A stretch of 64,000 nucleotides of DNA from Paramecium tetraurelia. Taxonomy: Eukaryota > Ciliophora > Oligohymenophorea > Peniculida > Parameciidae. This document shows, piece by piece, positions 16,201-64,000 of the stretch. Below the pieces are notes generated by a model. That model was not told where the DNA came from. It saw only the letters and a list, made by a program, of their open reading frames with translations, and did no database searches. The stretch covers positions 204,563-268,562 of the forward strand of contig NW_001798987.1 of NCBI RefSeq assembly GCF_000165425.1, given 5' to 3'. A program made the position numbers and the translations under genes. Within the stretch, counting starts at the first letter, position 1; every line of letters starts with the position of its first letter.

Positions 16201-19200
16201 AGAAATGTGCAGATAATTGTGAGCTCTGCATAAAAAGTAATGGATAAAATAAATGTGTTAAATGTAAGATGTATGAAGGTCGACGTCTGTCTTTATATGA
16301 TGGCGAATGCATTGATTGTCCAAGGTATTGTCAGATTTGTAAACCTAAAACTAATTCTTAATTATTAAGTGCTAATCCATATTTCTCGAATTCTGATATC
16401 AAATCTTCAACACATACTTGTTTAATGTTATAAACGGGATTAAGCTTTTAAGATTATTATTATGATACGAAATTTTAATAATTCTTCAAGCTAAGCGAAA
16501 CTGGAACAGATCCTAATTCAATTACATTAAAATTCAACCTTTATTGTAGCTCAGAGCTCTTTAATTAACATTTAGATTTGGCCTAGGACAAATAGCATTT
16601 TCTACAGTAAAATGTTAAAATTGATGAATTAATAACAAATAATTAATCTTAAAGCAACTTTGGAAGAATAGAAAATCTAAATTTGTATACATATCTCAGC
16701 ATATAACAGATTTAAGAAGTTGAGTTATAATTTAGCTTCATTTAGGATTGTTCTATAAAGCTTCACTCTTATATTTTCACTACTTTAATTTAAAACATCT
16801 ATTTTGTCACTTCAGCTAAAATTAAATTAATTGGCAATGGTTACACATTATTCCTTAACTCAAATCTAGAAGTATTAAATTTCGAATCTATTTCAATATA
16901 AAATCTAATAATTTAGCTGTAATCAACTGTGAATATCCATTTATAATCCTTAAGTGCTTTGAAAGTACAATTTAATTCAGTAGTTATACAATAATATTAA
17001 GAAGATTTAAATCCAATAGCATTTAATATTGTATCCACAAATCTCTAAGAATTATGGATTCAAGACTTATCTCTACAGAATCTAAATTTATAATCTGTAG
17101 CTAGTTTTTTTTACTTCGAATATACAGTTTAGTAACAATATATTGACATTAATATTGATCAATTTACTATTAAAAATTCAATGATACACAATTCAAATAT
17201 TATCTTACTTGATAATTACTTTTAAAAAACAACAAATTGCTAATTTAATAACATTCTAATCGTAAATTCCGATCTTAATTTAAGCTAATTTATGAAAATT
17301 CAAAATAATTAATAATTAGTTATGTAAGGATCTATATCATAAATATCAATCGTTTCATCCTTTTTATAAGATATTCAACCTTTATTCTAGACTTTTTGCT
17401 TTAAAAGTTTAAATATAAGCGGAATCTCTTTAACAAATTCAACATTCTAAAATTTTATTTTATTTTAAACAACTAATGAATAAATTAATAAGGATTATTT
17501 AATTAAGTTTTGTAATTTAAAGAATAGCTCAATTATTAATTTTGTTTAAGACTATTAATTTCAATCGATTATATTTCAGAATATTGAAGTTAATTAAGTA
17601 TATCATGACGATAAAACAATTCTTATAAATTTAGTATCAAATGACTTTACTAGCACAATTAAGATGTCAAATATTATTTTAGATACAATCACTATTCTTG
17701 ATAATATATAATTGGTTTAAAATTTACAGTCAATTATGTCAATAATTATTATCTAATCCAACTTTATTGAAATATCTGATATTAAAATCATTAGATCAAC
17801 TGGCATTACAGAATTTTTATTAACTTCAGCTATGAACTTAGTACTTTCAAATTTTACTATTACATTAAACCCAAAGTACTTCTATAAAAGCATAATCACA
17901 GATGAATAATGTTTATAACTTAATACATATTCTAAATATACAACCACTTTAATTGTTTAGAAGGCATAAAATATTAGAATATAGAACTTTTATATATCTA
18001 ATCTTATTCTTTTGGATTTCCCTATGATTTATATAATCTCGATTGCGACCTAAATTATTAAAAGATCAGAATCTGTTGTTATTGATTCCATGAATTTAGA
18101 TAATTGCATCATCTAAAAGAGTTAGACTATTAATTAGATATCTGGAATTCTTATATAATCAGAATAATAATAAGATATCCAAATTCTAAATTCTAAATTT
18201 AATAATAACATTTACTATTCATACTATAAAGAATCTGAGTCTGACTCAGCTTTAATATTCTATATAATTGCATAAAATTCGAAAATATTGTTGATCAATT
18301 GCTAGTTTAAACAAAATTATGTCTCTTAAAGTGAAAATAGTTTGTTATATATAAATGCAGAATAAATTAATGTAATTGATTCATCTTTTTTTTCAACTAA
18401 TTACATCTTTGATAGCTTTTTGAAGCACATAAATTGGAAATATCAACCTTATACTTTAACATTAGAATAAATCAAAAATTAATTTTAAGTATAATCCGCA
18501 AGTGGAAATGGTTAACTAATATCTTCCTCAGTTTAATTTAGAAACATAAATATTGAAGGTAGTTTTTCAACTTCTGCAGGATGTTTTAAAATTACATTAG
18601 AAAATGAAGGGTAGTTGCTTGTCAAAAATTCTGTATTTAAAAATATCTACACTAAAATATCTGAAGAATAATCATTTGGTGGTTGTCTTTATGTTATTGA
18701 TAGAAGCATTAATATCTAAATTGATATATTAGATTCTATTTATGATACAATTATTGGAACTGCTGAAGGTGGTGTTATTTATCTGAAGCCAATAGCATTA
18801 TAAGTTAACTTCAACTTCACTAATGTGACATTTTAAGATGTCTTTTCAAATGATGGTAATATTGCCAAACTTAATTTCCTAAGCTATAATCAATTACTCT
18901 ATATGTAGAATTGCAGAATTTTATAAACTATTGAAGGTTATTCAAAATTTAGATCTTTGTTTAGTTCATTTCAGAAATATGAAACTACCATGATTTCGAT
19001 ATAGTAAGGATATCTTATTTTAAGAGATATATTCGTTTAATTATATTTAAATATATTCTTATAGTTGAATTACCAAAGCAGAATCAGTTTGACATCAATC
19101 GAGATAGACTATTCTTATTATTATCAGAATTCTATAATGTAAATTAGCTTTTCAGCAGGTATTATAATAATATTATATTTAATAGATTAACAATGCAAAA

Positions 19201-22200
19201 TTGAAATTACAGGTCTCAAAATCAAAAACTTTAAATGGTACAAAGATGATCCAAAATTGGTAGCAATCTAAATTAGGTAAGTAATAGATGAACAATAAAA
19301 ATTGTCATAAGACTGTAGAAATGAATAAATATTAGGATTGAAAAATTAGACATATGAATTAATAAATTTATCAGATTTTATAGCTGAACCCTAAAATTAG
19401 ATTTAAAATCTAGTTTAAATAACAAATGTAAAAAATAAAGATTCAATATCAATTAAATCGAGCTAGTTTTCAAATAATTAGTGTTTATTATGCTTATCAG
19501 GGCTTATTTTTGTTAAATTAATTGAGTTTTAATCAGACAATATTATTATATCAAATATATGGTTGATGGATAATTAATGTGGTGAAAATGGATGTTTATG
19601 CATTGTGTAAGAGTTTCTAAGTTAAGATCAAAAGAAAATGTCTACGTTAACATTAGACACTATGTTTTGTTATAGAAATTAAGCAAAGAAAGGAGGATGC
19701 ATAGTCAGCCAATAGGTTGGTCTTAAAATAAAAAATAGTATTTTCAGTGAAAATCTAGCAGTTGAATAAGGAGGAAGTATTTATTATGATGGAGAAGTTA
19801 CAAATCTATTATTATAGAATAACCTTATCGTGTCAAACACAGCATAAGAAGGAGGTGCAATATATCTAGGCAACCAAAGTTTGCCAGAATTAAATAAAAC
19901 TTTAAACTACTTCAATAATAATACTGCATATGGATATGGTAACATTAGTTCATCTCACTCAACTTAACTTACAGTAATGTACAAAAATTTATAATTTTCA
20001 ACTTTAAATTCTTTGAACAATGGGAGGATAAATGCTTACTTAACTAATTAATCAAATTCCTCATAAATATTAGTCTTAAAATTGCCGAGTGGCTAATAAA
20101 TTTAAACATATTAGTATTTTAATATATAGAAATAGAAATACGAGCATTAACATTTAAAATTTAGAATTTTAGCTTTAAATGCCTATCATGAATAACAATT
20201 TCATCTTAATAATAGTGAATGTTTAATTGAAAGTGGGCACCAGTAAGGTTCCTAAGAAACCGTTTTTACAAATAATTATACAAATTATAATCGAAAAGTT
20301 TTTGATTAAGAAACATAAGATTATAATTTAGATGATTTAATTATTTATTACGGAACTGAGAATGATTAATCTAAACTAATCTTATAAATAAGTTGTAATA
20401 GTGTATAAATCCCAAAGTATGAAGATACTTTTCCTCATTAGATTATGGATTACAATTCTAAATATTAATTAATTTTATACATTCAAACATATCCATGTTA
20501 AATAGGAGAATATAAGAATCTAACCGATAATGCTTGTTATTTATGTGACATTAACAAGAAATAATATTCAGTAACTATCAATGCAACAACTTGTTAATTT
20601 ATGGATGAAGATACAATAGCATCAATAACACCTGCTTAACTTTAATTAAAATCTGGATATTGGAGACCATATATAAATAGTGAAATTATTGAATATTGCT
20701 AAAATAAAATTGAGAACTGTTTAGGTGGATGGAAATAAGGAGATGAGACTTGTGAAATTGGCTAATTGGGAGCTTGTTGTGAAGCTTGTGATTAATACAA
20801 TATTAGAGGAAATGGTTAATATAGTCTTAAAAAATTATATTAATGTTAAAAGTGTGACGATTTGGATAAACAAATTATTTATATCATATTGATAACCTTA
20901 TGGTATTTTATATTTATTTATTTAGGAATTTACTTTCAATCTATTTATCAACAAATGGAGTTGAGAAATTGATATTAGAATTATAGAAAAACAAAGTAGG
21001 AACAAGATAATTAATAATTAACAATAATAAACAAACTGGCCCAATAATGAAAATGTTTACAAACTATTTACAAATTTTGGCTATCATAATAAATTTTAAT
21101 GTTGAAATTCCATAAGCATTTAAGGATTATTATAATATTACTGGGAACTCTTAAACAATGTTATTAGTAACCACAGATTGCTTTTTAGCTTAGAATTTTT
21201 AAGAGGGACTCATATATGTGAAAATAATATATAGTATTATTTGTCCACTGTTTTATGGATGGATCTACTTATCTATATACTTCTTATTGAAATCCTTAAA
21301 GAAGATTGTTTATAATGAAGTAATACCAAAAACTTGTGTCTTATATTTGTTTTGCTATTTCTAAATATAGGTGATATAATTATTGATATCTTCATTATCA
21401 TTTAGAACATTATCAGACATAAAATGGATACAGGGGGATTTGGCTTATTAATTTGATACATCGCTTCATTAATAATGGATTCCTTATCTTATCGTACTAG
21501 CAATCATTATTGGAGCTACAGTACCAGGAATATTTATGATATACTTAGCGAAATATAGAAATTCGCTTTAAAAATATGATGTCAGAAGATTATTGGGATA
21601 TTTATATTTAGAATACTAACATAATGCTTATTATTGGGAAATAATTAGGATTGTAAGTAGGGAATTAATAATGATTGCTATTACATTTTACCAAGATAAT
21701 ATGATTATTAAATGCACGCTTTTATTTATTGTATTACTCGCCTATTATTTTATAAACTTAATGGTTTTACCTTTTCAGACAAAATCTTTAAATTAATTAG
21801 AATAAATGAGCACTTTGTTATGTACTTTTACATTATTTGAAGTTCTTTCATTATCATTAACAAGTAGTTTTTCTACTATTGCCATATTATTCATAATTAT
21901 AACAAATATTTATTTGTCTATTACCTTTATTTAGAGTTTAATACATGGGTATTTATAGTCTATGGAGGAATTAATAGACAAGATCAAGGATATCATTAGA
22001 GAGAACCTGAAATCAAAATTCAAAGATAACCGATTATTGGATAGTTGGCTTGTAAATAAAGGCTAGAGGAGAAAGTTAATTATTGAGAGATTTAAAAAAA
22101 TAAAGAAACATCTTTCTGTAGTGAGATCAAAACTTAGTAGTATAGAAAGGTAGAAATGTAATTTATTAGATTTTTATCTGTTTTAGTTTCACAAAATCCA

Positions 22201-22575
22201 TTATCTAGTGGTTTGCCAGACCCAAGAGATTTCACTTTAACATTGGTGAGATAATAATAGATTTTATTTACAAGTAGCGACTACAACACTATCAACGACC
22301 CTTTGACTAATTTGATAAATAAAAAGAAATCAGAAGAATGAAATTAATTTTTAAAAATTAAAAATATATAGTATAATTAATAAAATATTACTCATTTTTC
22401 CAAAAAATCAAATACAATTTATAAAGATTATTTCAAATTATTTTGGCAATCAAAATATGTCGAAAAGCAGTTTATTTGAGTTTCAAAATGTTTATAAGTA
22501 GGTATTAAATTAATGCATTCTTCGACAAAATATTATTAACATATTCGGTTTATATGTCTATTATTAAAGTTAAAA
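7160..22575 (+). repeat. Left arm of large inverted duplication
   Basis: From the Cys-rich part of gene B through gene C and its 3' flank, this segment is matched in reverse complement by 48626-64000. The match is collinear (the two spans differ by only about 40 bp) and runs off the right edge, so the true arm is longer. Stretches compared by eye range from about 88% (C-terminal membrane region of C) to about 95% or more (Cys-rich region of B). The arms are diverged, so this is not a simple assembly duplication. Confidence 0.9.
13284..22341 (+). CDS. Giant Cys-rich / beta-helix-repeat multi-pass surface protein (gene C)
   Basis: About 3,000 aa, starting 65 bases after the stop of gene B. The N-terminus MIDFYIWTASIILIGLI is a signal peptide. 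An N-terminal globular domain follows (YGYGFWFQY; about 13400-14600), then Cys-rich repeats (CKTCEDFSICTSCYDK type; 14640-16350), a long beta-helix-like region (16500-19500), GG-x-I motifs (QGGSIYYDG, EGGAIYLGN; 19770-19870), a Cys-rich juxtamembrane block (CLGGWKQGDETCEIGQLGA; 20480-20830) and about seven to eight membrane helices to a basic tail. Introns recognised: 23 nt near 14776, 24 nt near 14608 (25 nt in C'), 23 nt near 20901, and 29 nt near 22159. Each keeps the reading frame. No stop was met with those removed. It is likely a plasma-membrane or ciliary surface protein; its ligand is unknown. Inverted copy C' is at 48828-57888. Confidence 0.82.
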
Positions 22576-36993: not shown

Positions 36994-37635
36994 ATGTAGT
37001 AAAAGAAAAAAGACTCACCCTTGGTTCAGTTATCAAAAACAATGAGTTATTTTTTGAGACACGGTGCCTTGAAGGAAGGTATTCCAATTAGATAGGATGG
37101 CTTTGTGCTGGTTTAAGATTTACTCAAATAGCCTTCAATCGTAAAATTGAAAGCCGATCTATAAAGCATCAGAAATGTTGTGGATAATAATGACAAAAAA
37201 CGATTTGAACTAAAAGAAATAGATGGATAATTGTATATTAGATGTGTCTAAGGACATACTATTGAAATTAATGAGGAAGAACTATTATAAAAAATAGTTG
37301 ACCCACAATAATTTCCTGTTATTGTACATGGCACATACTTTTAAGCATGGGATTTGATTAAAAATACTGGATTAAATAAAATGGCAAGATAGCATATACA
37401 TTTTGCAGTTGGATTACCAGGAGATGACGCAGTAATCAGTGGAATGAGAAACACTTGTGAAGTCATTATAGAGGTGGATATGGAAAAAGCAATGAAGGCA
37501 GGCATTTAATTCTATGTATCAAAAAACGGAGTAGTACTATCAAGTGGAGTTGATGGTGTTATTGCACCATAATTTTTTAAAAGAGTAACCAATAGAAAAG
37601 GATAAGATATCAATTTTTAATAATAATAAATGTGA
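36994..37635 (+). CDS. TPT1: tRNA 2'-phosphotransferase (TPT1/KptA family)
   Basis: Transfers the 2'-phosphate left at a tRNA ligation junction onto NAD+, releasing ADP-ribose 1''-2''-cyclic phosphate; it is the last step of tRNA splicing. 213 aa, intronless. Start 36994 is preferred over the ATG at 37042 because the extra residues complete the family start L-S-K-T-M-S-Y-F-L-R-H-G. Conserved blocks in order: RHGALKEGI, DGFVLVQDLL, RFELKEIDGQLYIRCVQGHT, VIVHGTYFQAWDLI, GLNKMARQHIHFA, and SGMRNTCEVIIEVDMEKAM with FYVSKNGVVLSSG. The expected catalytic Arg/His residues (RHG, HGT, RQHIHFA) are all present. A Gln-rich end finishes the protein. Confidence 0.93.
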
Positions 37636-38222: not shown

Positions 38223-40176
38223 ATGAATTAACCAATTTAACTAAATTGTCAAAATCCAAAAAAAGGATACTTAATATAAAGAGGAAAAAGCAAAGCTAGT
38301 GAGAATCCAAAGGAGAGACAATCCTTTGCCGAGTATGTGAACTCTTTGTCAGAATCATAACAATAATTACATACTCATAATAAGTCTCCAAGAAAAGAAT
38401 CAGTGCCTAAGCGACATCCAACTCTTCCAAAATTAGAATTACCTTCTCCAGACGTCTTGAATAAAAGGTTCGTTGTAAATATTGGTAAATGTCCTGTCAC
38501 TAATTTCCAATCCCCTATTTACAGGCCTAGCTTGGTAAATGCTGCTCTAATATTATCGAATTAAAATTAATTCCACAACATTCAATCTCCTAGACACAAT
38601 TCCTTCGAGACCAGAAAGTCGCTCATTCCTTAATAGAGATTATTGCCTATCCATCGAACTTCGGTTAACAATATAAGTGGAAGAAGTGTACTGGATGATG
38701 ACATGAGTTTGTTCTATTATAAAATCGGAGGAGCTGAAACTATAAATCAACTCAATGAGGAGTTTCACCGATATTCAATTCAACACGAGATGATCTCAAG
38801 TAAGTAATCAAAACATATGTAGAGATTGATGATTAAGAAAGATATAAGTAAAGGTTTAAGACCTTCTTGGAATATATTATGGGAAAACCTATATTTTATA
38901 ATCTAGAACAATTAAAAGAAAAACATAAAGATTTAAGACTTAAAAATAGAGATTTCAATTAATTTAAAAACTATTTAATTGTACCAATAATTATTTAATT
39001 TAGACATGTTTCTTGAAAGTCAATAAGGCACAATTAGATTATGTATTTGAATTCAGTTCAATGATCGAGCAATATCGCTATTGTATTATCAATAGTAATA
39101 CTCCATTTGCTATTATTTACAACCAGAGAACTGAAAAATTAAATACAAAAGATGTTCCTGATCCTATATTATAATTAGCTTAGAGCAGCTACCAAAAGAT
39201 TTTCTAAGATAACTCCCTAGCACCATATTTTATAGGAATTGAAATCAAATAGTAAGCAAGAAAATTAGGCAAGATCTTATCCCAATTAATGGCTTGGGAA
39301 CAAACCAATGATCAGATTTTAGTCGAGATGAGATAGTCCCATAAGGGTATGCATTTGACAAATGTCCATTTCACTCTATTTAAATAACATCTTGTGGAGT
39401 CGATGCGTTAACTTAACATACAAGAAAAACAGATAGAGTTGGTGACAACTAGAATGGATGGTTATCGAAGTTACATCATAAATCAAGACTCTTTGTTGGA
39501 TTATTATGGAGAGCAATCTTCCTTATTGTAAGTTTAGTAAAAGAAGTATGTCTAATTGTTGAAGAGGGATCCTCGAATGCAAAACTACCCAGCAACTGCG
39601 ATGGAAAGACATTCTTAATTTATTTTGAGATACCTTACTCATTAGCATATACCTACCCTAACTAAAAATGACTTATGGACTATTCATTCCAAATATAATA
39701 TTGCCACTGAATGGATTGATTCCTTTCGTGATAACTTTTTCCTTCTTATCAAAAGTCTAAATCTTAATGCTCTAATTATTTAAGATTATGAGGATATCTG
39801 GTATAAACTAAGAAACAATCTTACTTAATATCATTCGATTGAAAGTAAGATTGGTAAGATGAAAGTTAATCTTGTAATAGCTAAAGTTTAAATAAAATTG
39901 TAAGATAATGAAAATTACACAGAATATTTTAAGAATGCCAATTACTAAATGAATTTGCATCTCCATCGGATAATTGCTTTTATATTAACAGATTAACACA
40001 TCTACAACTCAAATGATTTAAAGGTCATTCACTAATCAGTTAAAATTAGAGAAAGTACATTTAATTTGTTTATTTAATTCCTTAAAAATGCTATGTAAGA
40101 AGAAGGCATAAGTTCCAGTCTAATTGCTTAGGCCGAAGAGATTTGTAATTATTATAAAAAGAGTGTGTGCACTTGA
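38223..40176 (+). CDS. Four-domain truncated-globin (2/2 hemoglobin) protein
   Basis: 635 aa after removing two 23-nt introns. Residues 1-160 are disordered and rich in S-P/K-R. Domain 1 (about 163-290) opens with the truncated-globin signature Y-K-I-G-G-A-E-T-I-N-Q-L-N-E-E-F and has a candidate proximal His in LKEKHKDLRLKNRDFNQF. Domain 2 (about 295-405): IFQDNSLAPYFIGIEIKQQ, then MRQSHKGMHLTNVHFTLF. Domain 3 (about 420-518): YVQLLKRDPRMQNY, then LWTIHSKYNIATEWIDSF. Domain 4 (about 523-635): ESKIGKMKVNLVIAK, DNENYTEYFK, then LKVIHQSVKIRESTFNLF. Each domain repeats the order start helix, D-x-x-(hydrophobic)-x-x-(Y/F)-F, x-x-H-x-x-(hydrophobic), and a final F-x-x-F helix. Ciliates are known for single-domain truncated hemoglobins; four in one chain is the unusual part. 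Heme binding is inferred, not shown. Confidence 0.75.
38800..38822 (+). other. 23-nt intron in globin gene
   Basis: GTAAGTAATCAAAACATATG followed by TAG. Removal joins HEMIS to K-I-D-D-Q-E-R-Y in globin domain 1. A textbook Paramecium intron in size and borders. Confidence 0.85.
38981..39003 (+). other. 23-nt intron in globin gene
   Basis: GTACCAATAATTATTTAATT followed by TAG. Removal avoids an early TGA and continues domain 1 as T-C-F-L-K-V-N. Confidence 0.85.
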
Positions 40177-41205: not shown

Positions 41206-42913
41206 ATGTCAGATAGCGAAAATGAATAATAAAAAAAGGTTGTCCTCCCTTAAATAATAATGAATGTCTATGACACTCAATATTAAGTGGTTCGTTATGT
41301 GGGATAAGAAATACTCAAATGGAAGTTGATTTCAGAACCAGAATCATGGGATTGGGATGTTTATTGGACTGATTCTGGAGTCCACGCAGAAATGCTGAGC
41401 AAAATGAAATGTACAATTTAAATTAATAATCTTCAAGAGCATTAAAAAGTTAATCATTTTCCAGGGATGTACATATTGGCCAGAAAAAATAATCTGGGGA
41501 AATAATTAACTAAAATGCGTCGACGATTTCCTAAGGAATTCAAATTCTTTCCTTTTACATGGATGCTCCCTTCTGATTCTTAAGACTTAAGGGAATATAT
41601 GAAGGGAAAGGGAAGAGATGAGATTTTAATAGTTAAGCCTGAAGCATCTTGTTAAGGGAGAGGTAAGAATTAATTGGTAAAGTTCAGGTATTTTCTTAAC
41701 TAAATCTCTTGACTTCATCAGTCCAACAGAGAAATACGTAGTGTAAAAGTATTTGGGTGAACCCTTTTTAATTGACGGTTTGAAATTTGATTTTAGAATA
41801 TATGTTCTCGTCGCTGGATGCGATCCTTTGAGAATATTTATATACACTGAAGGATTGGCAAGATTTGCAACTGAAAAGTACTTGCCTCCCCATCCTTCAA
41901 ATTTTGACGATCTTTGTATGCACTTGACTAATTATGCTATTAACAAAAATAACGAAAACTTTGTATTTAATGAAGATGTCTAGAGAATGGATATTGGACA
42001 CAAGAGAAGTATGTCAAGTGTTTTTGAAAAATTAAAATAGGAAGGCAGAGATATTGATCAACTGTGGATGGATATCAAATAAATCATAATAAAAACTCTT
42101 TGTTCTGCTCAACCTTTTCTTAAACATCAATATACCACTAGTCAACCTAATAATCTTATGAATAATATGTGTTTTGAAATCTTGGGATTTGATATTATTT
42201 TGGACAATTCCTTCACGTAACTATTTAACCTCTATTTTAGACCTATTTTATTAGAAATCAATCATAGTCCTTCATTTACTACAGACTCTCCTTTAGATCA
42301 ATACATCAAGGCTAATTTGATTGAAGACTCACTAGTGTTGATGAATGTAAACAGGGAAGAGAAATACAGACTGATGTATGTTTTAATTCTTATTAAGATA
42401 GGAGAAGCACCAAGAAATGCAAAAACGTATTTTAACAGGGAGAAATATCAAAATGACATAAGAGGATAGAAAGGCCATTGTTGAATAATATCAATTGATT
42501 CGAGATGCCTATGAGGATGAACATCTAGGGGGATTTGAGAAGATTTATCCATGCGATGAGGAGTATGAGACAGATTATTATACTTAATTTCTGAATTATG
42601 CTAGTGACATCTTTGAAGAATCAACGGGTAATTGTGAAACATCTATGTAGGTACAAAAAAGATCTAATTGCCTCCAAGTAGAAAAATAACTGGAAGTCCA
42701 TAAAAATCAATAAAACATGATGCTGCTAAAATCTATGCTCAACCTTTGAGAGTAGTTGTTTAATCATAACAGCTCTAATCAAGGAAAACTAAATAACATA
42801 CTTTATTATACAAGTCTATGATCTAACAATAGATTCAATAGGAATAACGAAAAATCTAGATCATGATGAAATAGAGGGAATAACTTCAATAAAAATAAAA
42901 ATATATTTAATGA
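41206..42913 (+). CDS. Tubulin tyrosine ligase-like (TTLL) glutamylase
   Basis: An ATP-grasp enzyme that adds glutamates to tubulin tails, important for ciliary microtubules. Conserved blocks seen: WDVYWTDSGVHAEML, NHFPGMYILARKNNLGKQ, FKFFPFTWMLPSD, IVKPEASCQGRGIFLT (nucleotide loop), YVVQKYLGEPFLIDGLKFD, FRIYVLVAGCDPLRI, MHLTNYAINKNNENF, FEILGFDIILDN and RPILLEINHSPSF (metal-binding E-x-N). The combination resembles TTLL4/6-type polyglutamylases. Introns: 25 nt near 41663, 24 nt near 42218, 22 nt near 42377, and 23 nt near 42629, all frame-restoring. A long Gln-rich basic tail follows, as in chain-elongating TTLLs that bind microtubules. About 535 aa. Its 3' end overlaps the convergent HSBP1-like gene by about 50 bp. 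Confidence 0.9.
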
Positions 42914-48827: not shown

Positions 48828-51800
48828 TCATTCTTCTGATTTCATTTTGCTAATTAAATTAGTGAAAGGGTCATTGATATCATTGGATTCACTTCTTGTA
48901 AATAAAATCTATTATTGTCTCACCAAAGTTAACTTGAATTCTCTTGGGTCTGACAAACCACTAGATGATGGATTTTGTGAAACTAAAATAGATAAAAATC
49001 TAATAAATTACATTTCTATCTTTCTATACTACTAAGTTTTGATCTCACTACAGAGAGATGCTTCTTTATTTTTTTAAATCTCTCAAGCATTATCTTTCTC
49101 CTTTAACCTTTGTTTACAAGCCAACTATCCAAAGATGGATATTATTTTAATTTTGATTTTAGTTTTTCTCTCATAAAATCCTTGATCTTGTCTATTAACT
49201 CCTCCATAGATTATAAATATCCATTTATTAAACTTTAAATAAAGGTAATCAATAAATAGATATTTGTTATAATTATAGATAATATAACAATAGTAGAAAA
49301 ACTACTTGTTAATGATAATGAAAGAACTGCAAATAAGGTAAAAATGCATAAAAAAGTACTATTTTATTCTAATTAATTTAAAGTTTTTGTCTTGAAAGGT
49401 AAAACTATTTAGTTTGCAAATAAATAGGCAAATTTTATAATAAATAAAAGCGTGCATTTAATAACCATATTATCTTGGTAAAATGTAATTGCAATCATTA
49501 TCAACTCTCTACTGACAATCCTAATTATTTCCCAATAATAGGCTTTATGCTAATATTCTAAATATAAGTATCCCCATTATCTTCTCACATCGTATTTTTA
49601 AAGTGAATTTTTATATTTTGTTAAGTATATTATAAATATTCCTGGTACTGTAGCTCCAATGATGATTATTAGTAAGATAAGATAAGGAATCCATTATTGA
49701 TGAAGTGATGTATTAAATTAATAAGCCAAGTCGCCTTGGATCCATTTTATGCCTGATAATGTCCTAAATGATAATGAAGATATTAATAATTAAATCACCT
49801 ATATTTAGTAATAGCAAAACAAATATAAGACACAAGTTTTTGGTATTACTTCATTATAAACAATCTTCTTTAAGGATTTCAATAAGAAGTATATAGATAA
49901 GTAGATCCATCCATAAAAAAGTGGACAAATAATACTATATATTATTTTCACATATATGAGTCCCTCTTAAAAATTCTAAGCTAAAAAGCAATCTGTGGTT
50001 ACTAATAACATTGTTTAAGAGTTCCCAGTAATATTATAATAATCCTTAAATACTTATGGAATTTCAACATTAAAATTTATTATGATGGCCAAGATTTGTA
50101 AATAATTTGTAAGCATTTTCATAAGTGGACCAGTTTGTTTATTATTGTTAATTATTAATTGTCTTGATCCTACTTTATTTTTCTATAATTCTAATATCAA
50201 TTTCTCAACTCCATTTGTTGATAAATAGATTGAAAGTAAATTCCTAAATAAATAAAAATAAAATACCATAAGGCTATCAATATTATATAAATAATTTGTT
50301 TATCCAAATCGTCACACTTTTAACATTAATATAATTTCTTAAGACTATATTAACCATTTCCTCTAATATTGTATTAATCACAAGCTTCACAACAAGCTCC
50401 TAATTAGCCAATTTCACAAGTTTCATCCCCTTATCTCCATCCACCTAAACAGTTCTCAATTTTATTTTAGCAATATTCAAGAATTTCACTATTTATATAG
50501 GGTCTCCAATATCCAGATTTTAATTAAAGTTAAGCAGGTGTTATTGAAACTATTGTATCTTCATCCATAAATTAACAGGTTGTTGCATTGATAGTTACTG
50601 AATATTATTTCTTGTTTATGTCACATAGATAGCAAGCATTATCAGTTAGATTCTTATATTCTCCTAATTGACATGGATATGTTTGAATTTATAAAATTAA
50701 TTAATATTTAGAATTGTAATCCATTATCTAATAAGGAAAAGTATCTTCATAATTTGGGGATTTAGACACTATTACAACTTATTTATAAGATTAGTCTAAA
50801 TTCATTATTCTCAGTTCCGTAATAAATAATTAAATCATCTAAATTATAATCTTATGTTTCTTAATCAAAAGCTTTTCTATTATAATTTGTATAATTATTT
50901 GTAAAATTGACTTCTTAGGAGCCATACTAGTATCCACTTTCAATTAAACATTCACTATTATTAATGTGAAATTGTTATTCGTGATATGCATTTAAAGCTA
51001 AAACTCTGAATTTTAAATGTTAATGCTAGTATTCTTATTTATTTATATCAAAATACTAATATGTTTAAATTTATTAGCCACTCGGCAATTTTAAGACTAA
51101 TAATTCTGATCGATTTGATTAATTAGTTAAGTAAGCATTAATCTACCCATTGTTCAAAATGTGTAAGGTTGAAAATAACACACTTTTGTATAATATTGTA
51201 AGTTAAGTTGAGTGAGATGAACTAATGTTACCATATCCATATGCAGTGTTATTATTGAAATAGTTAAATGTTCTATTTAATTCAGGTAAACTTTGATTCC
51301 CTAGATATATTGCACCTCCTTCTTATGCTGTATTTGACACTATAAGATTATTTTGAAATAAAAGATTTGTAATTTCTCCATCATAATATATACTTCCTCC
51401 TTATCGAATTGCTAGATTTTCACTTAAAATACTATTTGTTATTTTAAGACCAACTTATTTGCTAACTATGCATCCTCCTTTCTCTGCCTAATTTCTATAG
51501 CAAAACATATTGTCTAGTGATAACTTAGACATTATCTTTTTTTCTTAACTTTATAACTCTTACACGAAGCATAAGCATCCATTTTGACCACATAAATTAT
51601 CCATTAACCATATATTTGATAAAATAATTTTGTCTGATTGCAACTCAATTAATTTAATAAAAATAAGTCCTTATTAACAAAATTTACACTAATTGTTTGA
51701 AAATTAGCTAGATTTAATTGATATTGAATCCTTATTTTTGACATTTGTAATTTAAACTAAATTATCAATCTATTTTTAGGGTTCAACTATAAAATCTAAT

Positions 51801-54800
51801 AAATTTATTAATTCATAAGTAGAATTCTTAAATTTTAATATTTATTCATTTCGACAATCTTATGACAATTTTAACTAATCATCAATTATATACTTAATTT
51901 AGGTTGATTCCAATTTTGGATCATCTTTGTACCATTTAAAGTTTTTGATTTTAAGACCAGTAATTTCGATATTGCTTTGCTGATCTATATAATATAATAT
52001 TTTTATAATACCTTCAGAAAAGCTAATTTACATTATGGAATTCTAGTAATAAAATGAATAGTCTATTTCGATTGATGTCAAACTAACTTTGCTTTGATAA
52101 TTCAACTATAAGAATATATTTAAATATAACTGAACGAATAAATGTCTTAAAACAAGATATCCTTATTACATTGAAATCAAAGTAGTTTCATAATTTTAAA
52201 ATAAACTAAACAAAGACCTAAATTTGGAATAACCCTCTATTGTTTATAAAATTCTGCAATTCTACATATAGAGTTATTAATTGTAGTTTAGGAAGTTAAG
52301 TTTGGCAATATTACCATCGTTTGAAAAGACATCCTAAAATGTCACATTAGTGAAATTGAAGTTAATTTATTAGGCAATTGGTTTCAGATATATAACACCA
52401 CCTTCAGCAGTTCCAATAATTGTATCATAAATAGAATCTAATATATCAATTTAGATATTAATGCTTCCATCAATAACATACAGGCAACCACCAAATGATT
52501 ATTCTTCAGATATTTTAGTGTAGATATTTTTAAATACAGAATTTCTGACGAGTAAATATCCTTCATTTTCTAATGTAATTTTAAAACATCCTGCAGATGT
52601 TGAAAAACTACCTTCAATATTTGTGTTTCTAAATTACACTGAGGAAGATATTAGTTAACCATTTCCACTTGTGGATAGCACTTAAAATTAATTTTTGATT
52701 TATTCTAATGTTAAAGTATAAGGTTGATATTTCCAATTTATGTGCTTCAAAAAGCTATCACCAATCTAATTATTTGAAGCAAAAGATGAATCAATTAGAT
52801 TAACTTATTCAGCATTTATATATAATAAACTATTTTCACTTTAAGAGACATAATTTTGGTTAAACTAGCAATTGATCAACTATATTTTCGAATTTTATGC
52901 AATTATATAGAATATTAAAGCTGAGTCAGACTCAGATTCTTTATAGTATGAATAGTAAATGTTATTATTAAATTTAGAATTTAGAATTTAGATATCTTAT
53001 TATTATTCTGATTATATAAGAATTCCAGATATCTAATTAATAGTCTATCTCTTTTAGATGATGCAATTATCTAAATTCATGGAATCTATAACAATAGATT
53101 CAGATCTTCTAATAATTTAGGTTGCAATAGAGATTATGTAGATCATAGGGAAATCCAAAAGAATAAGATTAGATACATAAAAGTTTTATATTTTAATATT
53201 TTATGCCTTTTAAATGATCAAAGTAGATGTATATTTCGAATATGGATTAAGTTATGAACATTATTCATCTGCAATAATGCTTTTAAAGAAGTACTTTGAG
53301 TTTAATGAAATAGTAAAATTTGAAAGTACTAAGTTAATGGCTGAAGATAGTAAAAATTCTGTAATACCAATTGATCTGATGATTTTAATATCAGATATTT
53401 CAATTATGTTGGATTATATTAGAATAATAGAGGAAATTGACTATAAATTGGAAACCAATTAAATATTATCATAAAGAGTGATTGTATCTAAAATAATATT
53501 TGACATCTTAACAGTACTAGTCAAATCATTTGATACTAAATTTATAAGAATTGTTTTATCGTCGTGTTAAATCTAATTAACTTCAATATTCTCAAAAATG
53601 ATAGATTGAAACTAGTAATCTTAAACAAAATTAATAATTGAGCTATTCTTTAAACTACAAAACTTAATTTAATAGTCCTTATTAATTTATTCATTTGTTG
53701 TTTAAAATAGAATGAAATTTTAGAATGTTGAATTTGTTAAAGAGATTCTGCTTATAATTAAACTTTTATAACAAAAAGTCTAGAATAAAGGCTGAATATT
53801 AGATAACAAGGAGAAAACGATCGATATTTATGATATAGATCCTTACATAACTAGATATTAGTTATTTTTAATTTTCATAAATGAGCTAGAATAAAGATTG
53901 GAATTTATGATTAGAATGTTATTAATATAACAATTTGTAGTTTTTTAAAAGTAATTATCAAGTAAAATGATATTTGAATTATGCATCTTTGAATTTTGAA
54001 TAGTAAATTGATCAATATTAATGTTAATATATTATTATTAAACAGAATATTCGAAGTAAAACAAACCAGCCACAGTTTGAAGATTTATATTCTGTAGAGA
54101 CAAGTTTTAAATTTCTAATTGCTAGAGATTTGTGGATATAATAGTAAATGCTATTGGATTTAAATCTTCTTAATATTATTGTATAACTACTGAATTAAAT
54201 AGTACTTTCAAAGCACTTAAAGATTATAAATGAATATTGACAGTTGATTACAACTAAATTATTAGATTTTATATTGAAATAGATTCGAAATTCAATACTT
54301 CTAGATTTGAGTTAAGGAATAATGTGTTACCATTGCCAAGTAGTTTAATTTTAGCTGAAGTGACAAAATAGATGTTTTAAATTAAAGTAGTGAAAATGTA
54401 AGAGTGGAATTCTATAGAACAATCTTAAATAAATCTAAATTCTAATTCAACTTCTTAAATCTGTTAGACACTTAGAAATGTGTACAAATTAAGATTTTCT
54501 ATTCTTCCAAAGTTGCTTTAAGATTTATTATTGGTTATTAATTCATCAATTTTAACATTTTACTGTCGAAAATGCTATTTGTCAAATGCCAATTCTAGAT
54601 GCTAATTAAAGAGCTCTAAGTTACAATAAAGGTTGAATTTTAATGTAATTGAATTAGGGTCTGTTCCAGTTACACTTTACTTGAAGAATTATTAAAATTT
54701 AGTGTCATAATAATAGTCTTATAAGCTTAACTAAGATTATAACATTAAACAAGTATGTGTAGTAGATTAGACATTATTATTTGAGAAATATGGATTAGCA

Positions 54801-57800
54801 CTTAATAATTAAGAATTAGTTTTAGGTTTACAAATCTGACAATACCTTGGACAATCAATGCATTCGCCATCATATAAAGACAGACGTCGACCTTCATACA
54901 TCTTACATTTAACACAGTTATTTTATCCGTTTCTTTTTATACAGAGTTCACAATTTTCTGGACATTTCTTGATACATTTATCTTAGTAAAATTCAAAATC
55001 TACTGTGCAAGTCTTACAAACAACTTCTAATTTATCATATGGTTCATTTCCGAATATATCATTATAGAATGTTCCTCGTTTCATCATGTAATGGACTATA
55101 GCATACCTAATTTTCCAACCATTCTTCCATTACTTTGATCGCTATTCACATTTATAACAATTCAGCTCTGATAGACATGCAATGCACTAACCAGAAGCTA
55201 ATTCAGCATAATATCCAGGATAGCATTACAAACATATATTATAGAAACAGTAAGCACAATTAAGAAAAATACTTTCACAACCGTTTGAAATTGAAGCAAT
55301 CAATTTTAATTCTTTTTTGTAAACCATACATTAGTACTATAATTGGTTTAATTGCAAAGATTCATACACCTCCATTTAGTACATTTGGGTACAATATTGT
55401 TTATTTTGAATATTGTCAGGGAATTGAATCTATTCTAATACATTATCCTGAAAGTAACGAAGCATAACCTTCTGCACACAAAGCACAATAATTAATATGA
55501 TATTTAGAATTAAAATCTCCTTTTTCATACATATGAAATAAAGTATTTACTTTATTTCTCCTATACCAGGATTTATGAAATTAGATCGCATATATGCAAT
55601 TAGGATCTAGATTTTGAATACAATCAACTGCATTAATTGATAAATAATATTTTTAATTATCTATGCAATTAATGCATCTATTATAATAAAATCCATCTTT
55701 CGGATTTTTAACATATATGCATTCTAAGCAATATTTACTACACGGGTAACATTATCCTTCAAATACTGAGTATTATTCTAGGCATTTAATGCATTGAACA
55801 CCAGATAAATATTCACATTCTAAACAATCTTTTGGACATTCGAGACATTCATTATTAAGAGGATTCAAAGTCAAAAGATCATAGCAAGAAGTGCAAACAG
55901 AAAAATCTTCACAAGTCTTACAATTAGAATGACACACAACACATTCTCCATTTTTATAATAGAATTGCGATTGGCATTAAATATATACCTGTAACAAAGT
56001 TTGAAAATGACAATTTGAATCAATATTTTAATTACAAAAAGATTTGCATCCAACACACAATGTAAGAGAAGATGTTGACGTATCAAGAAAATATATTTCA
56101 ACATCTTTATCTTCTCTCTAAATTAATTCATATTGACCATAACTATTAAAAATAGAATCGGATTCACATTTCAATAGTTTAGAAAATGTTTCTGGTTAAG
56201 TCAAACATTCTATGCAACTTATCTTTTCCAATTAAATTTCATTAAATTAAGGACATAGTATATAAATTACTTCATTATCGACTTCTTTAATTGGAAAATA
56301 ACCAAATTAAGATACAGTTTAATTTTTTGCATTGTAATCTTATATAGATGTGGGATAGAAATCCAAGAATTCTAATTTAAGATATATGTATTACATATGC
56401 ATTTACCAATATTACTTTCAATATAGCCTAGACTGCATTTACAATAACTATTTTCTAGATATCTATTAGAGTTCTAATTACAATTTATGCATTAATTAAG
56501 ATATGGACCATTGCAATCTTAACAACTAAAGTGGCACTCTTTTATAATCAAAAATAACCATACTCTTCAGGAGAACAAAAGGCTCAGGTAAGCAAACAGT
56601 AATCTTACTGCTCTCACTTGTTACAAATATTCCATTAATCGAGCCATCTATCATAATTCCACTTCTTATTTATAATTAACTTCCATCGAAAGGATATGTT
56701 CTATTATGATATTGAGCTTCATAGACATCCCCATCATTGAACCACATTTTCAAATTTTAAACTGGCACTTATGTTTAATCAAAACCATACAGAATGGAAA
56801 CATAATGCCATTATCTTAAATCTTATTTTAAATTATGGAAAGCAATTTCGCTTTTATCTAGAAATTGACCCTGATAGAGTTATAATTCTGGAGTTATCTG
56901 ATTGAGGGTTTAGAAATACACTCCATTTGCTAAGTCACTTGTCCATGCTTAAAGTAAACAATACTATAAATCAACTAGCTTGTAGTAGATCTTAGTATCT
57001 AACTCAAAAAATATTTCAATTCCAAAAACACTAGTTGATATGTTTATATTCTATTATAAAAGATAATATTACAAGAATATAATCAATCTTCACCCAAGAT
57101 TCAAGTTAAATCAATCCAAATTGGTATTTATAATTTGATATTAAAAACGTATCATAAGTTGAAGTCTAACAAAATGGTTTAGGTGTAAATTTTTCTTCAA
57201 TAAAATTTTTAAATTCTTAAACTGTGTTAAAAACTACATTATTTTTATCGAAATTATACTCTGCTTTCGAAATTCTGCCAGGATATTGAGCAAATTGTTT
57301 TGATTCATCATTTTAATTTAATTATAATTTAAATTCTCCTCCTTGAGTAATTATTGTCTCCTTCAATTCTAAATTAGTACTTGATTAATAGTTTATGATT
57401 TGACAATTATCATTCAGAATATCATACATAATTATTTATCTTTAATAAGGAAATTAATATGAAACAAATATATGAATCCATTTGCCTTAAAAATCGAATG
57501 AGTCAAATATGAATTTTGCTAATTGGATCATTTAGCTATTTGATTCATATTATAAAAATAAATATTATTCCTAATTTGCATTTTTGTTTTTCAAATCTTA
57601 ATACAAAAATACCCTATACTTAGAAGTATCAGGATTTATCTCCCTTATTAATAGAAACCCTTCAGGATTAGGTAATTTTACTAAATCATCTATAAGAAAA
57701 ATGTTCCAGGGTAAATATTAGAACCAGAAGCCATATCCATACGCTGAATAATCTAAGAGTGATATTCTAGTTGTCTCGGTTGTGTCACCTAGAAGGCATC

Positions 57801-57888
57801 CTTGCAATGTAGTTGAATCACACTCGATAGAAGGTCTAATTAATCCTATCAATATGATCCTGGCTATCCATATATAAAGATCAATCAT
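48828..57888 (-). CDS. Giant Cys-rich / beta-helix-repeat multi-pass surface protein (gene C', inverted copy of C)
   Basis: Starts MIDLYIWIARIILIGLI at 57888 and ends at TGA 48828-48830, 9,061 bases against 9,058 for gene C, with the same domain order: signal peptide, N-terminal globular domain, Cys-rich repeats, beta-helix-like region, GG-x-I motifs, Cys-rich juxtamembrane block, and multi-pass membrane domain with basic tail. Differences from C are mostly single bases. Near 56556 the copies differ by one base (25 against 24) inside a GT..AG segment, best explained as an intron, and the frame agrees on both sides. Stretches checked by eye kept the frame, but the whole length was not verified codon by codon. 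Confidence 0.75.
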
Positions 57889-57946
57889 TTTATTAAAATA
57901 AAAATTATTAAAATATGTCCTAATAATTTGGATTTTTCAATCAAAA

Positions 57947-60900
57947 TCATAACGTCTCATTCTTTTCTTGTGAGCTTTAAAATTCTTTTTTAATTGATAG
58001 TTATGTTTTGCCTGACTGTTTTAAAAAAGCTCTTAGTAATTAAAATCGGTTTTTTCTTAGTTTTATGGAACAGTTTGATTGAGATTAAAATATGTTATAC
58101 TTGATAAATATCTTATTCAATTATCCTAAACTTTCAAATATTTTAAAGAATATTCTTCTTATATGTTAGGAATTCAACTTCCATAAATGGAGGATTATAA
58201 ATACTCCAACTAAAATAAATATAGAATTTATTATAATCAAAATTATATTTTTAAACATGGAACCTTAGCTTTCCTATACTGAAAATAGTGTGCAAGATAG
58301 TAAGATTATGATACTGATAATATTTAACTAACTTTCAAATCTATTCATTTATTTATGATAATAGATTTTATTGTCTTAACAGAGTTTAGTATAAATTATT
58401 AATAGAGAAAAGGAGAATGCTCCTTTTATTGTAGCATTTGCATCAATCATTGTAATTATACATATTAATCCATCAACCAATAAGAATTTATAAAATTCCC
58501 AATGTTGATGATCATTTTAGTAAGATGTAAACCAAAATCCAAAGTTTTTAAAAGGAATAGGCTTTGATAAAAATAAGTTTGACTTTGACTTTTGTAGTAA
58601 TAAATAAGGTAAAATAATCGCCAGACAGATCACAAAAGGTAAAAATAAAAAAAATACTAATTTAAGATGATTTGTATTTGTGTAATCATAGGAAATATTT
58701 TTGTAAATACAATACACATCTTAAATATCTCTAAAAGCTATAAGTTGAATCATCGATCGTATAAAACTTCCAACAACAAAGATATATATTAAATAGATGA
58801 AATTAAATAATTCCATCTATGTAATTCTTTGTTTCGACATTAAAGTCTTCAAAAAACAAAAACAAACATAAATAGCCATCATTATTATCATGCATATACA
58901 ATTTTATAAGATTTATAAGTAAAGCACACTAACTTCTAAGTCTAATAGTTAACATATATTATATATTTCTAAAAATGTAAAAGGATCTCCTAGAAAATGA
59001 ATTAAATATTAGACTTAATCAGAAAATACAGAAGATAGTTCTTAAGTAAAACTGATAATTTGAAAATAGAACAGTATAATCTTTATACTCTACCCCATAA
59101 GTGCTTCCTCTTACTTAAAAATACCTTATCTGAAAGGTACTTTAAACTGATTAATATTCGAACGAATAAATTAAAGTCTTTTATTAGACAAATAATTAAT
59201 TATTAGAAGTAGGCATGCAAATCTTAAATTAATAACATTTTTACATTAAAATTGTGATCAAGAAATTAAATAGCTATAGTTTGGTATCATTTTAGCAAAT
59301 TTAACATTCGAAAAATCCCTCTCTTTAGTAATTTCCTCCTCCTCTCTCATTATAATAATCACATTATTCACAAAGAGCCCCTATATAACCCTATTAGCAT
59401 AGATCATTTCCAACTCCCCATCCTCCTATACAATTTTGCTGATTATTTAAGCACAAGTCAATGGTTGAAGTAGTCACCTTCATTCTCCAATAACCCTAAA
59501 TATAATAAGATGATTAGAATACCTATTTTAAGAATATTTAAGCTTAAGTTATTTCCTAAATCTTTTGATCATCAGCAGTTTGGCAACTAGTAGCTCCTAC
59601 AATTACAGAGTATTATTTCTAATCTACAATGCATTAGTGACAATAATCCTCTTTTGATTAACTGTATTCTCCCATTTAACATTCATTAGGCTTAATCAAT
59701 AAACTCAAAACATAGTTTTAGTGATATCTAATTTAAAATATAATTATACCCTTCTATTATATGGTTTTTATTGTTTATTACTGGAATATAAATACTATTA
59801 CATTTAATCAAAAGTTCAAAGGGTTGATTTGAATCTGAAGGTATGTAAAAGATTAAATCATCTAAATTATATGAAAATGTTGATTCATTAAAGTAAATTT
59901 TATTTTTATTTAAAGATAAATTTTGTTCTTATCTAGTGTTTACATTATTTATTTGTAATTCACAATAGGTATTTGTAAGATTTCTAACCATTTCTAATTA
60001 TGAATTAACTGCATATAATCTCATCTACATAGTTTTTTAATTGTAACTATTTTTTTCTATTTCAAATTTTTTGTATTCTGATAATGGCATTCCAGTAGGG
60101 ATATGAATAATTGATATTTATCCTGATTTACTAATGATTTAAGACTTTTAACTATTTTTAGAATTTTATACAATAGTTGGTTTTATTATTTCGTCTTGAA
60201 AAATTTACAAATAAAGCTATTAAGGTTGTTCATCAATTTGATTCAATCCATAATTGTCAATCAACTCGATTCCTTTTATATTTCTATTCAAGTTGTTTTC
60301 ACTATAGATGCCACTTCCAAATTAAGCTGAATTATTTGTAATAACTAAATTCTCTGAAATTAATGTTAAATTAATCCCTTTTGTAAAAATGGCCCCTCCA
60401 TATATTGCATTGTTACCAGATATCAAACTTTCTATAATTGAAATGACTTAATTTTAGATGAACAAGCAACCTCCGTATTAAGCTTAATTGTTGATGCATT
60501 ACAAATATTGTATTCTAATTGCAGAATTAGCTAAAGAGCTATTAAAATCTTAACTTTAAAGAATACGGTTATCTTATGAAATGAAAGAAATGCAACCATT
60601 TTTCCCACAATACGAATTAGATATAGCCATTTTTTAAATAATTAGGGATGGTTTGTTTCTAATATCAAAACTCAATAGACCATTTGAGCACTTGCTGCAC
60701 TTGTTATTTTAGAGAATTATATCAGAAAGTTGTATTTTTTGATATTGATATTATTCTGTAAATTAAAATGATATCATAGTCACTGTTGATTATTATATCT
60801 AAGATAATAACGTTTATAAAAATGTTATTTGATTAATATTATAGTAACTTTCATTAAAACTTATAATAATTAAAGGAGCGTCTATTAAATTTTCTTTACA

Positions 60901-63900
60901 AGATGTTATTACACTATTATTTAAAATTTTTGCATAGACTTTTTAGGGAATATCGTCTTCACTTATTTAAATTTAAGTGCAGTTGTAAAACTCTACATTT
61001 TGAAGAATTATTTCGTCAGACTATCTTACTGGAGAAAATAGCATTAATTGATTCGAATAAATAATATTTTGTATTGAAATATTCTTGAGGTTTGCACTTC
61101 CATATAATTAGAATAAGGGTATAGGTAGATAATTTGTTACATATAAATCTCTTGTTTTAAATTAACAATCATAGCAATGGATCAGTGAATATTCTTATGT
61201 CAAAGTTGTGAATTCATTATTTGATAGATCCTGCAAAGAATTGATGAATGCATAAAATGAATCCAATCTTTAAGATAAATTACATTAATTCATCTAAATA
61301 ACTTGTAATTCATGGATAGATTTTTCTATGTATATTAGCCCTCCTTAAATTGAAAAAATGTTCTCAAATGTGGAGTTAAGTAAGGAGATCTAAAATAATT
61401 TTGTTGAAGGTATAATATAAAATATACTGCCACCCTTTCTGGAGGAAATATCTAGAAATATTGTATTAATAACATCAATTCTTAAATATAATGATTAAGA
61501 TTAGATATGAAAAGCTCCTCCTTATGATGATTCTATTAATTCAGCTTGTAAATTTTCAAAGTGTGAATTTTAAATCTGTAAGTTTCCATCTTCAATCATT
61601 TTCATTACAAATGCAGCACCTTAGATTGAGATGGAATCTTATAATAAAATCTTGTTCAATACAATTTATCGGCCTTAAAAATTTCCATTTCCTCCTCTGC
61701 TAGAACTAATATACAATTTCTATAAGTCTTCTAAAAAGATATCTTCTGGTAAACCCCATCTGAGGAATTGCTTTATAGTATCATAGACAAATGCTGAATT
61801 CTGAAAAAACTTTGTGTTTTCTAAAATAATTTAGTCAGAGTCAATATACATAAGTGATCCTTGACCATTCAAAATCATATTGTTTTGAATTAAGCAATTA
61901 CTAATTGCACTTTTGGCTTGATGTGCTTCCACTAATAAAATCAGGCTTTGTTTTTAAGGATTGCTTTTTTTTAATAAATTTAATAAATTCTACAAGAATA
62001 TAACTCCTGTTATATTCAAACTCAGATCATAATTAGTATTAATTGATATTAAAGATACTTTTTCATATTTATTTACTTGATGTAAAATGTTAGAGGAAAA
62101 ATTGCAATTGATAAATACAAATTATGAGCTAATTTATGAAAGCATTTGAATTTCAAATAAAACTGAATCATATAATATAATATCAGTGATATTTGTATTT
62201 GAAACATAAGTAAATTAGCTATTTTATAAATTCATAAGGGTATTGTACATGAACTAATTGAATAGTTGTATATTACATTCTTAATTATTAAATAGACTTT
62301 TAAAATAATACTTTTCATGCAATATTATTACAGAGTTTAAAAATTTAAAGGTATTCGCATTCTTAATAGTAAATTCAGAGTAGCCTATTCCTCTCTGAAT
62401 CATCAAAGTATCAAAAATAACAGTATTAGATTCAATGTTGATTATGGACAATTCAATGTTCTTATCAAGAGAATCTTTTTACTTATCAATATTAATAGCA
62501 TTGTTGATAAATTCTATATTATTAAGATATACAGAATCTGAATTCAATAATAGGATTAAAGCATTTTTATTTGAATAAACATTCTCTATGAACTTACCAT
62601 TTTTAATTTATATTAATTCAAGAAATTCTTAGTTTTAATTGATTAGAAATGTGGATTATCCTAAAAATGAGAGTTTATATAAATTGAATTCTATCAAAAA
62701 CAGAATTTTAGAACTTGATATAAAATTTGAATTTTGTAAAGTTGAATCTAAAATTGAGAATCCATTTAATTCAGCTCTGTAAATTTACTCGAAATTAAAG
62801 AAATTTGTGGTATTTAATAGAATTGAATTTTCAAAAATAAAATTATCTATCCTTAAAATTTCAGTTGAATATAAAAACTCCAAAACAACAGTATTTATAA
62901 ATTAGGAATTCAAAATATGCAAATTTGATATTTTAGTTTCTACTTTTTGAGATGTGTTATATTTGATAATTGAAGTATTCATAATTTTAATATGATTTAT
63001 GATTAGATCTAGTGCTACTAATTTAGCATCAAATTTTTGATTCGTAATTTCAAATAAGCCATTTTAAAATAGAATATTAATATCTTATATTAATATATTT
63101 GAAATATAAATGTCAGAGGATTCCTTAATTTAAATTAAATAATCTTATGATGATACACCAGTTTAATCTTGATAGATTTTTATGGTTTCAAACTCTACAG
63201 TATACCTAATGATATTGTCCATTGATATCTGCCCATTCTATATTTTAAGATCAAGGTTTTTAATTTTTATGTGTGTAAAGTTTGAAAATGATAAGTGATT
63301 ATTCAATTAGATAGTACTTCCAGATCCATTTATAATAACGTTTAATTCAATCAAATTAAAAATATAACTTTATAAATTTGATTAGATTTTAAGTTCCGCA
63401 TTTAATAAACATAGTTAGTTGTCTGCAATTGTAAGTTAATAAGTAACTATCTTAACGAAATTCTGATTAAGATAGAGAAAATAGTCATAATATTCAAATA
63501 ATGACAAATCAAAATTTTCCAAAAGAATATGAAATTTTCTCTAAATTAGCATTTATTCTTCATTTAATTAGTTGAGATAGTTTTCTAAATCTATTTAGTT
63601 ACAATAAATTTAAATTTGAATTACAATTTCTTTTTAGCATTCATTACCGTTATCACATTTAATAAATTATTGAATATCCTAATCGTAAAATAAGTCACTA
63701 GATAATGGTGCTATGCATTTATGAGAAAAGTATTCTAAATCTTTATTGTTAAAATATGGATTGATCATTAATTTTTCATTATCAGTTCTTGGATGACATA
63801 TATTACAGTTTTAAGGACATTAAATGCATCTTCCATTATAAACATGGTAATGTGAATCATTAAATTAAATGCAAGAAATACATATCTACTAATCATCAAT

Positions 63901-64000
63901 AATTTTGCATTCCTTACAATTACTAGGACATTTTTAGATACATTTATCAAAATGTTTAATATAGCCATCTGAACATTAAGTACATATCATCTCAATTTCA
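57947..64000 (-). CDS. Giant surface protein gene B' (inverted copy of B), 5' part outside window
   Basis: Ends at TGA 57947-57949, 59 bases before the start of C', as B ends 65 bases before C. The visible 6 kb covers the end of the first Cys-rich repeats (63950 leftward), the beta-helix-like region, GG-A-I motifs, the second Cys-rich block (about 59300-59700) and the membrane domain, all collinear with gene B. The C-terminal exon was followed to the stop without interruption and ends in a different tail (SSQEKNETL rather than STQEQSEKI). The intron near 61730 is one base shorter than in B. The signal peptide and N-terminal region are beyond the edge. Confidence 0.75.

Follow-up and report, generated by a model that had tools for sequence, protein, structure and literature searches.

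The window analysed here is a stretch of 64,000 nucleotides of Paramecium tetraurelia DNA (contig C34, positions 204563-268562; genome searched, 69 Mb on 231 contigs). On its forward strand lies a gene for a protein in which a low-complexity tail is followed by four candidate truncated-globin domains, D1 to D4, laid out as follows.

38223..40176, + strand: whole gene, join(38223..38799,38823..38980,39004..40176), translation table 6, TGA stop, 635 aa
38223..38699, + strand: N-terminal tail, residues 1-159, low complexity, with one Cys-Pro dipeptide (C90-P91)
38800..38822, + strand: intron 1, 23 nt, GT..AG; if it is retained, codon 257 becomes a stop
38981..39003, + strand: intron 2, 23 nt, GT..AG; if it is retained, codon 257 becomes a stop
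38700..39096, + strand: predicted globin domain D1, residues 160-276, spanning both introns; Pfam Bac_globin 29.6 bits (cut-off 21)
39124..39483, + strand: predicted globin domain D2, residues 286-405; Pfam 20.2 bits, just under the cut-off of 21
39484..39825, + strand: predicted globin domain D3, residues 406-519; no Pfam match, linked to the others by hhalign
39826..40173, + strand: predicted globin domain D4, residues 520-635; a weak Pfam match of 14.1 bits

The neighbouring genes encode a Tpt1/KptA RNA 2'-phosphotransferase (36994-37635, + strand; Pfam 3.7e-64) and a protein with a tubulin-tyrosine ligase domain (41206-42913, + strand; Pfam 1.5e-56 for the piece 41618-42484). Elsewhere in the window, 6312-22341 (+ strand) and 48828-63990 (- strand) encode two giant predicted proteins, each about 5000 aa long and Cys-rich at its start.

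The exons of the four-globin gene were recovered identically by a separate codon-and-intron gene finder. D1 is joined to D2-D4 via the two introns, both of which are required for an open frame, and D2-D4 lie within a single exon that is open over 390 codons, so that these three domains are not separate genes. Given this open exon, and that the layout recurs in paralogues, separate genes fused by error were ruled out. With at least two truncated-globin units in one reading frame, the product belongs among the multidomain truncated haemoglobins. An earlier sequence-only reading of this DNA had the coordinates, the length of 635 aa and four histidine motifs (HKDL at 227, HKGM at 358, HSKY at 473 and HQSV at 588) exactly right, and its proposed splits at about 290, 410 and 520 agree with the domain bounds given above. 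Its finer motifs fared unevenly: an FxxF follows the histidine in D1 (FNQF), D2 (FTLF) and D4 (FNLF) but not strictly in D3 (WIDSF), and of the domain starts I-G-G and I-G-K, the IGG of D1 stands whereas the IGK of D4 varies in relatives (VGK, VGQ, IGA). In group-I truncated haemoglobins the AB and EF corners each carry a Gly-Gly motif; in the window protein the AB motif occurs, as IGG, in D1 only, and the EF-corner Gly-Gly is absent from all four domains.

The central claim of that reading, a tandem array of four globin domains that all have a proximal histidine, is backed by profile comparison, by conservation among paralogues and by a domain tree. As a whole, the window protein matches Pfam Bac_globin at 45.4 bits against a cut-off of 21, and singly only D1 passes. 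When nine members were taken for each domain, Bac_globin was matched at E ≤ 1 by 3/9 for D1, 9/9 for D2, 0/9 for D3 and 2/9 for D4. Recognition of D2-D4 as globins by HMM, on which the earlier claim was to stand or fall, therefore held for D2 but largely failed for D4 and wholly for D3 with Pfam. Domain profiles (A1-A4, each built from 9 of 18 members; in A4 the C16a row was swapped for a cut C217 row) were compared with structures in the PDB. The best match was cyanoglobin for D1 (4.6e-6), the Chlamydomonas eugametos globin 1uvx for D2 (7.5e-11) and the Tetrahymena group 1 truncated haemoglobin for D4 (0.0054), where 8/8 rows were group-1 globins. For D3 the top 3/8 rows were cyanoglobin with non-significant E-values of 0.12-0.13, and the other five were unrelated proteins.

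Comparison of the profiles with one another by hhalign gave E-values of 8.3e-15 for D1-D2, 6e-9 for D1-D4, 1.4e-5 for D1-D3, 5.3e-5 for D3-D4, 6.3e-4 for D2-D4 and 0.044 for D2-D3. In each of the six domain pairs none of 60 column-shuffled profiles scored as high as the real one (the maximum after shuffling was 20.8, for D1-D3, whose real score is 37.6), and reversed profiles scored 11.3-18.5 against real scores of 20.7-84.2, the closest pair being D2-D3 (20.7 versus 18.1). D3 appears to be tied to the globins mainly via D1 and D4 and to be the weakest member of the four. With that ranking in mind, we are confident that all four domains have the globin fold. No reductase, flavin or output domain was found in the window protein with Pfam or NCBIfam, the NCBIfam search yielding one match (E 0.054) that we judged to be chance.

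Structure prediction adds to this picture for D3. Run without an alignment, AlphaFold gave for D2-D4 an unusable model (pLDDT 37.9), with no globin among the 50 Foldseek rows listed. Run for D3 with an 11-row alignment of D3, D2, D4 and eight bacterial globins, it gave a model of six helices (pLDDT 72.7, pTM 0.58) whose best Foldseek rows were 2/2 globins (Chlamydomonas THB4, E 0.04, TM 0.71). These were mixed with 3/3 globins and phycocyanins, and 0/446 matches reached E ≤ 0.001. Since the alignment was seeded with globins, the model speaks for compatibility of D3 with the globin fold rather than proving it.

The gene does not stand alone. Protein searches found at least 20 related genes in the genome, 21 were modelled with the window gene included, and the window gene appears to be one of at least 19 paralogues with the same four-domain layout. 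Of 17 compared with the window protein over residues 160-635, C55 is 93% identical to it, C1 73%, C174 and C21 53%, and the remaining 13 lie at 20-24%. In a domain tree of 51 rows, the rows of each domain position cluster together, with supports of 84/76 for D1, 99/99 for D2, 100/99 for D3 and 87/81 for D4. The tree carries a long-branch warning; it leaves out the near-copies C55, C25, C50a, C74b, C217 and C74a, the D4 of C5a and C128 and the D3 of C128, and it includes six single-domain rows from 19 places. Because the domains group by position, the four unlike domains predate the radiation of the genes, and all paralogues appear to descend from an ancestor that already bore four different domains. 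The same clustering rules out a recent tandem duplication inside the window gene, with the caveat that the supports for D1 and D4 are only those just given and that branches are long. All four homologous domains seem to be under purifying selection: between the window gene and C55, dN/dS is 0.047 overall, 0.012 for D2, 0.048 for D1 and 0.086 for D4, and for D3, with a dN of 0.044, synonymous sites are saturated and no ratio can be given.

Some family members have features of their own. L029, L031, L032 and L033 each hold two four-domain genes in tandem. At L034 (C128) a frameshift in D3 leaves matches to the family in both of the frames that it separates, either a sequencing error or a decaying copy. 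A tblastn search for neighbour genes near five paralogues gave no match within flanks of only about 1 kb.

Each domain of the window protein has a proximal (F8) histidine.

38924..38926, + strand: D1 F8 histidine, His227, in 21/21 models (register unsure in C187 and C159)
39340..39342, + strand: D2 F8 histidine, His358, in 19/21 models
39685..39687, + strand: D3 F8 histidine, His473, in 20/21 models
40030..40032, + strand: D4 F8 histidine, His588, in 20/21 models, the miss being C5a, a cut-off model whose raw frame reads His

The other misses fall in two divergent copies, C187 (D2 and D3) and C159 (D2), and all four F8 histidines are retained in 19/21 genes, the D4 of C5a being counted by its raw frame. 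Invariance was scored in 16 of the 18 alignment rows, the doubtful models C5a and C128 having been dropped (C40, C187 and C159 lie outside the alignment). Across these 16 clean rows, 30 of 476 columns do not vary; they include His227, His358, His473 and His588 as well as His448. The hypergeometric chance of finding all four F8 positions among the invariant columns is 1.3e-5, or 0.003 within the 16 histidine columns; as the paralogue rows are related, these figures are guides and not exact probabilities. F8 invariance and these figures rule out histidine motifs that arose by chance. The earlier suggestion that some domains had lost haem does not hold for the closer relatives, where all four histidines are kept, and loss is seen only in C187 and C159. 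On balance we lean towards all four domains binding haem. The same columns bear on the idea that the protein is a globin-derived structural helical repeat, in which D3 and D4 would have lost haem and kept their histidines for packing. The Pfam counts for D3 and D4, and the unusable outcome of one AlphaFold run out of two, are in its favour; however, the placing of all four F8 histidines in so small a set of invariant columns and the match of the D3 model, globin-seeded as it was, to 2/2 globins make it very improbable.

Beyond its F8 histidine, D2 has four further pocket residues.

39190..39192, + strand: D2 Tyr308, B10, in 20/21 models
39229..39231, + strand: D2 Phe321, CD1, in 19/21 models
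39253..39255, + strand: D2 Gln329, E7, in 19/21 models
39262..39264, + strand: D2 Lys332, E10, in 19/21 models

Together with His358, these residues are invariant in 16/16 clean rows and align, in the profile match, with the same residues of the P. caudatum haemoglobin 1dlw; it is through this alignment that we take the five positions to be B10, CD1, E7, E10 and F8. Position B10 of D1 is occupied by His in the window protein and by Tyr in 9/18 rows, and in D1 and D4 no conserved pocket residue beyond the F8 histidine could be assigned. A complete, conserved group-I ligand pocket can be recognised only in D2, which very probably binds haem.

A single complete pocket is also what would be expected of a gas sensor or scaffold, in which O2 or NO would be sensed by D2 alone, and D1, D3 and D4, whether or not they carry haem, would make up a rigid rod able to shift the N-terminal tail or a partner protein. 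Between clade A and the rest of the family, identity is 30% for D2 but about 19-20% for D1, D3 and D4, and short motifs in the tail are conserved within clade A, both of which fit such a device. Yet the F8 histidine is as strict in D1, D3 and D4 as in D2 across the 16 clean rows, whereas a haem-free scaffold needs none, and the window protein is without an output domain. We consider a sensor or scaffold of this kind rather improbable.

D3 differs from the other domains in a second histidine.

39610..39612, + strand: D3 His448, candidate distal ligand, in 18/21 models; one of the three misses, C128, is a broken model whose raw frame reads His

His448 lies on helix E and is invariant in 16/16 clean rows. 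Two profile alignments, one of them through D1, place it at E10 and MAFFT places it at E7, both of which are distal. In a profile alignment it falls on residue 46 of Synechocystis cyanoglobin, which we take to be the sixth ligand of that protein; in the same alignment the register is imperfect, with the F8 histidines of D3 and cyanoglobin four positions apart. The available text of PMC7082302 describes Synechocystis cyanoglobin as hexacoordinate and gives E10 as the sixth-ligand position, occupied by Lys, in Chlamydomonas THB1, 2 and 4. D3 has the mark of a bis-His six-coordinate site, a second histidine on the distal side that is kept in relatives, and we put the case that it holds a bis-His haem at evenly balanced.

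The second histidine also bears on whether the protein is simply a store of O2 or haem, with four independent haem sites for buffering and repeats that provide dose without division of labour. Four retained F8 sites and many gene copies would suit a store, but the second histidine of D3 would hamper O2 binding, and because the four pockets differ and each domain forms its own clade, the domains are not interchangeable copies; we regard a store as distinctly unlikely. In C187 and C159 the CD1, E7, E10 and F8 residues of D2 and the second histidine of D3 are all lost while the F8 histidines of D1 and D4 are retained. Such co-loss, the single sign of coupling that we observed, would be expected if D2 and D3 work together, although it may represent one event in two degenerate copies.

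The N-terminal tail has the highest dN/dS of the measurable regions against C55 (0.106). A Cys-Pro dipeptide, often as CPF or (K/R)CP(V/I), is found in 15/18 modelled proteins; its location differs between clades, and it is absent from three tandem 'b' genes. We take the Cys-Pro of the tail to resemble haem regulatory motifs, where a Cys-Pro within a flexible segment binds haem.

From these sequence comparisons we infer, at about even chances, a multi-haem protein in which D2 would handle O2 or NO and D3 would be a bis-His redox haem. In our model, the protein would be a soluble four-domain truncated haemoglobin with one haem held per domain. D2 would be the O2 or NO site, with TyrB10 and GlnE7 hydrogen-bonding the ligand. 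D3 would be a six-coordinate bis-His haem, a poor ligand binder and an electron carrier, and its electrons would keep the iron of D2 reduced. The chain would then turn NO plus O2 into nitrate, or would sense gas in a redox-tuned way. The less constrained haem sites of D1 and D4 would act as spacers or further relays, and the tail would fix location or partners. The redox division of labour from D3 to D2 is a tentative proposal that we would not yet call probable. The fullest version, a single polypeptide whose four unequal haems would make up a miniature redox chain, with D2 reduced by D3, two flanking haem domains and a Cys-Pro tail that reads haem supply, is speculative and, in our judgement, unlikely. 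The absence of Pfam matches in D3, the D2-D3 hhalign E-value of 0.044 and the D3 PDB E-value of 0.12 appear to count against the redox reading, as does the lack, in the window protein, of any reductase, flavin or output domain and of the EF-corner Gly-Gly. NO dioxygenation in vitro is, in the available text of PMC2323109, general to haemoglobins and so little guide to role; the same text gives missing reductant as the limit on globin NO chemistry in vivo. If the redox-chain reading were true, about 20 genes in one ciliate would make up an NO or O2 enzyme family that is self-contained and reductase-coupled.

The four-domain architecture itself is not new, as Chlamydomonas reinhardtii THB5 has already been reported to carry, like the window protein, four 2/2 haemoglobin domains in succession along one chain (PMC7082302, available text). 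THB5 is algal, however, and the likeness is drawn from that description rather than from the THB5 sequence, so it extends neither to pockets nor to descent. The title of Hade et al., 2017 (Multidomain truncated haemoglobins, IUBMB Life) names tandem repeats of globin units, and that paper may already include ciliate genes. Our literature search found no paper on four-domain ciliate globins, and as the text of Hade et al., 2017 lay outside it, we make no claim that they are absent from print. In the parts of the literature available to us, we found no description of differentiated pockets conserved across such a family, the second histidine of D3 included. Among single-domain relatives, the group-I globins of P. 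caudatum (1dlw), Tetrahymena (3aq5) and C. eugametos (1uvx) share the pocket residues of D2 and are its best PDB profile matches, but unlike the window protein they consist of one domain of about 120 aa without an N-terminal tail. Synechocystis cyanoglobin (1s69, 1mwb) is the best PDB match to the D1 and D3 profiles, and its residue 46 is a His corresponding to His448; in contrast, it has a single domain, and its match to D3 is not significant (0.12). The chimeric globins of Guillardia theta likewise place several globin domains in one protist protein, with six in two chains, but they have the 3/3 fold and a putative cytochrome b5 N-terminus (PMC4101818, available text). If our reading is true, the window gene encodes a natural chain of four globins in which haem was retained while jobs diverged, and D2 versus D3 would offer a built-in test of how globins obtain the electrons that they need.

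As the domain library reports one or two of the four domains here, the multi-globin proteins of ciliates are probably under-counted. A six-frame search of the genome with Pfam PF01152 found 21 places. The contig of the window has none of them, since introns interrupt D1 and D2 scores too low to pass the cut-off. The four-domain family accounts for two of these places (C50 and C174), and the other 19 lie outside it. Most models at these 19 look single-domain, some having been fused to neighbours by the gene finder. The earlier statement that a ciliate truncated haemoglobin normally has a single domain is thus only half right for this genome, where genes with four domains are about equally numerous. 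L037-L043 and L046 hold single-domain truncated globins of a second class (DQQVSELIDQFYYKVLFDKLL...), whose F8 region and FDKFK-like G helix resemble those of the four-domain family.
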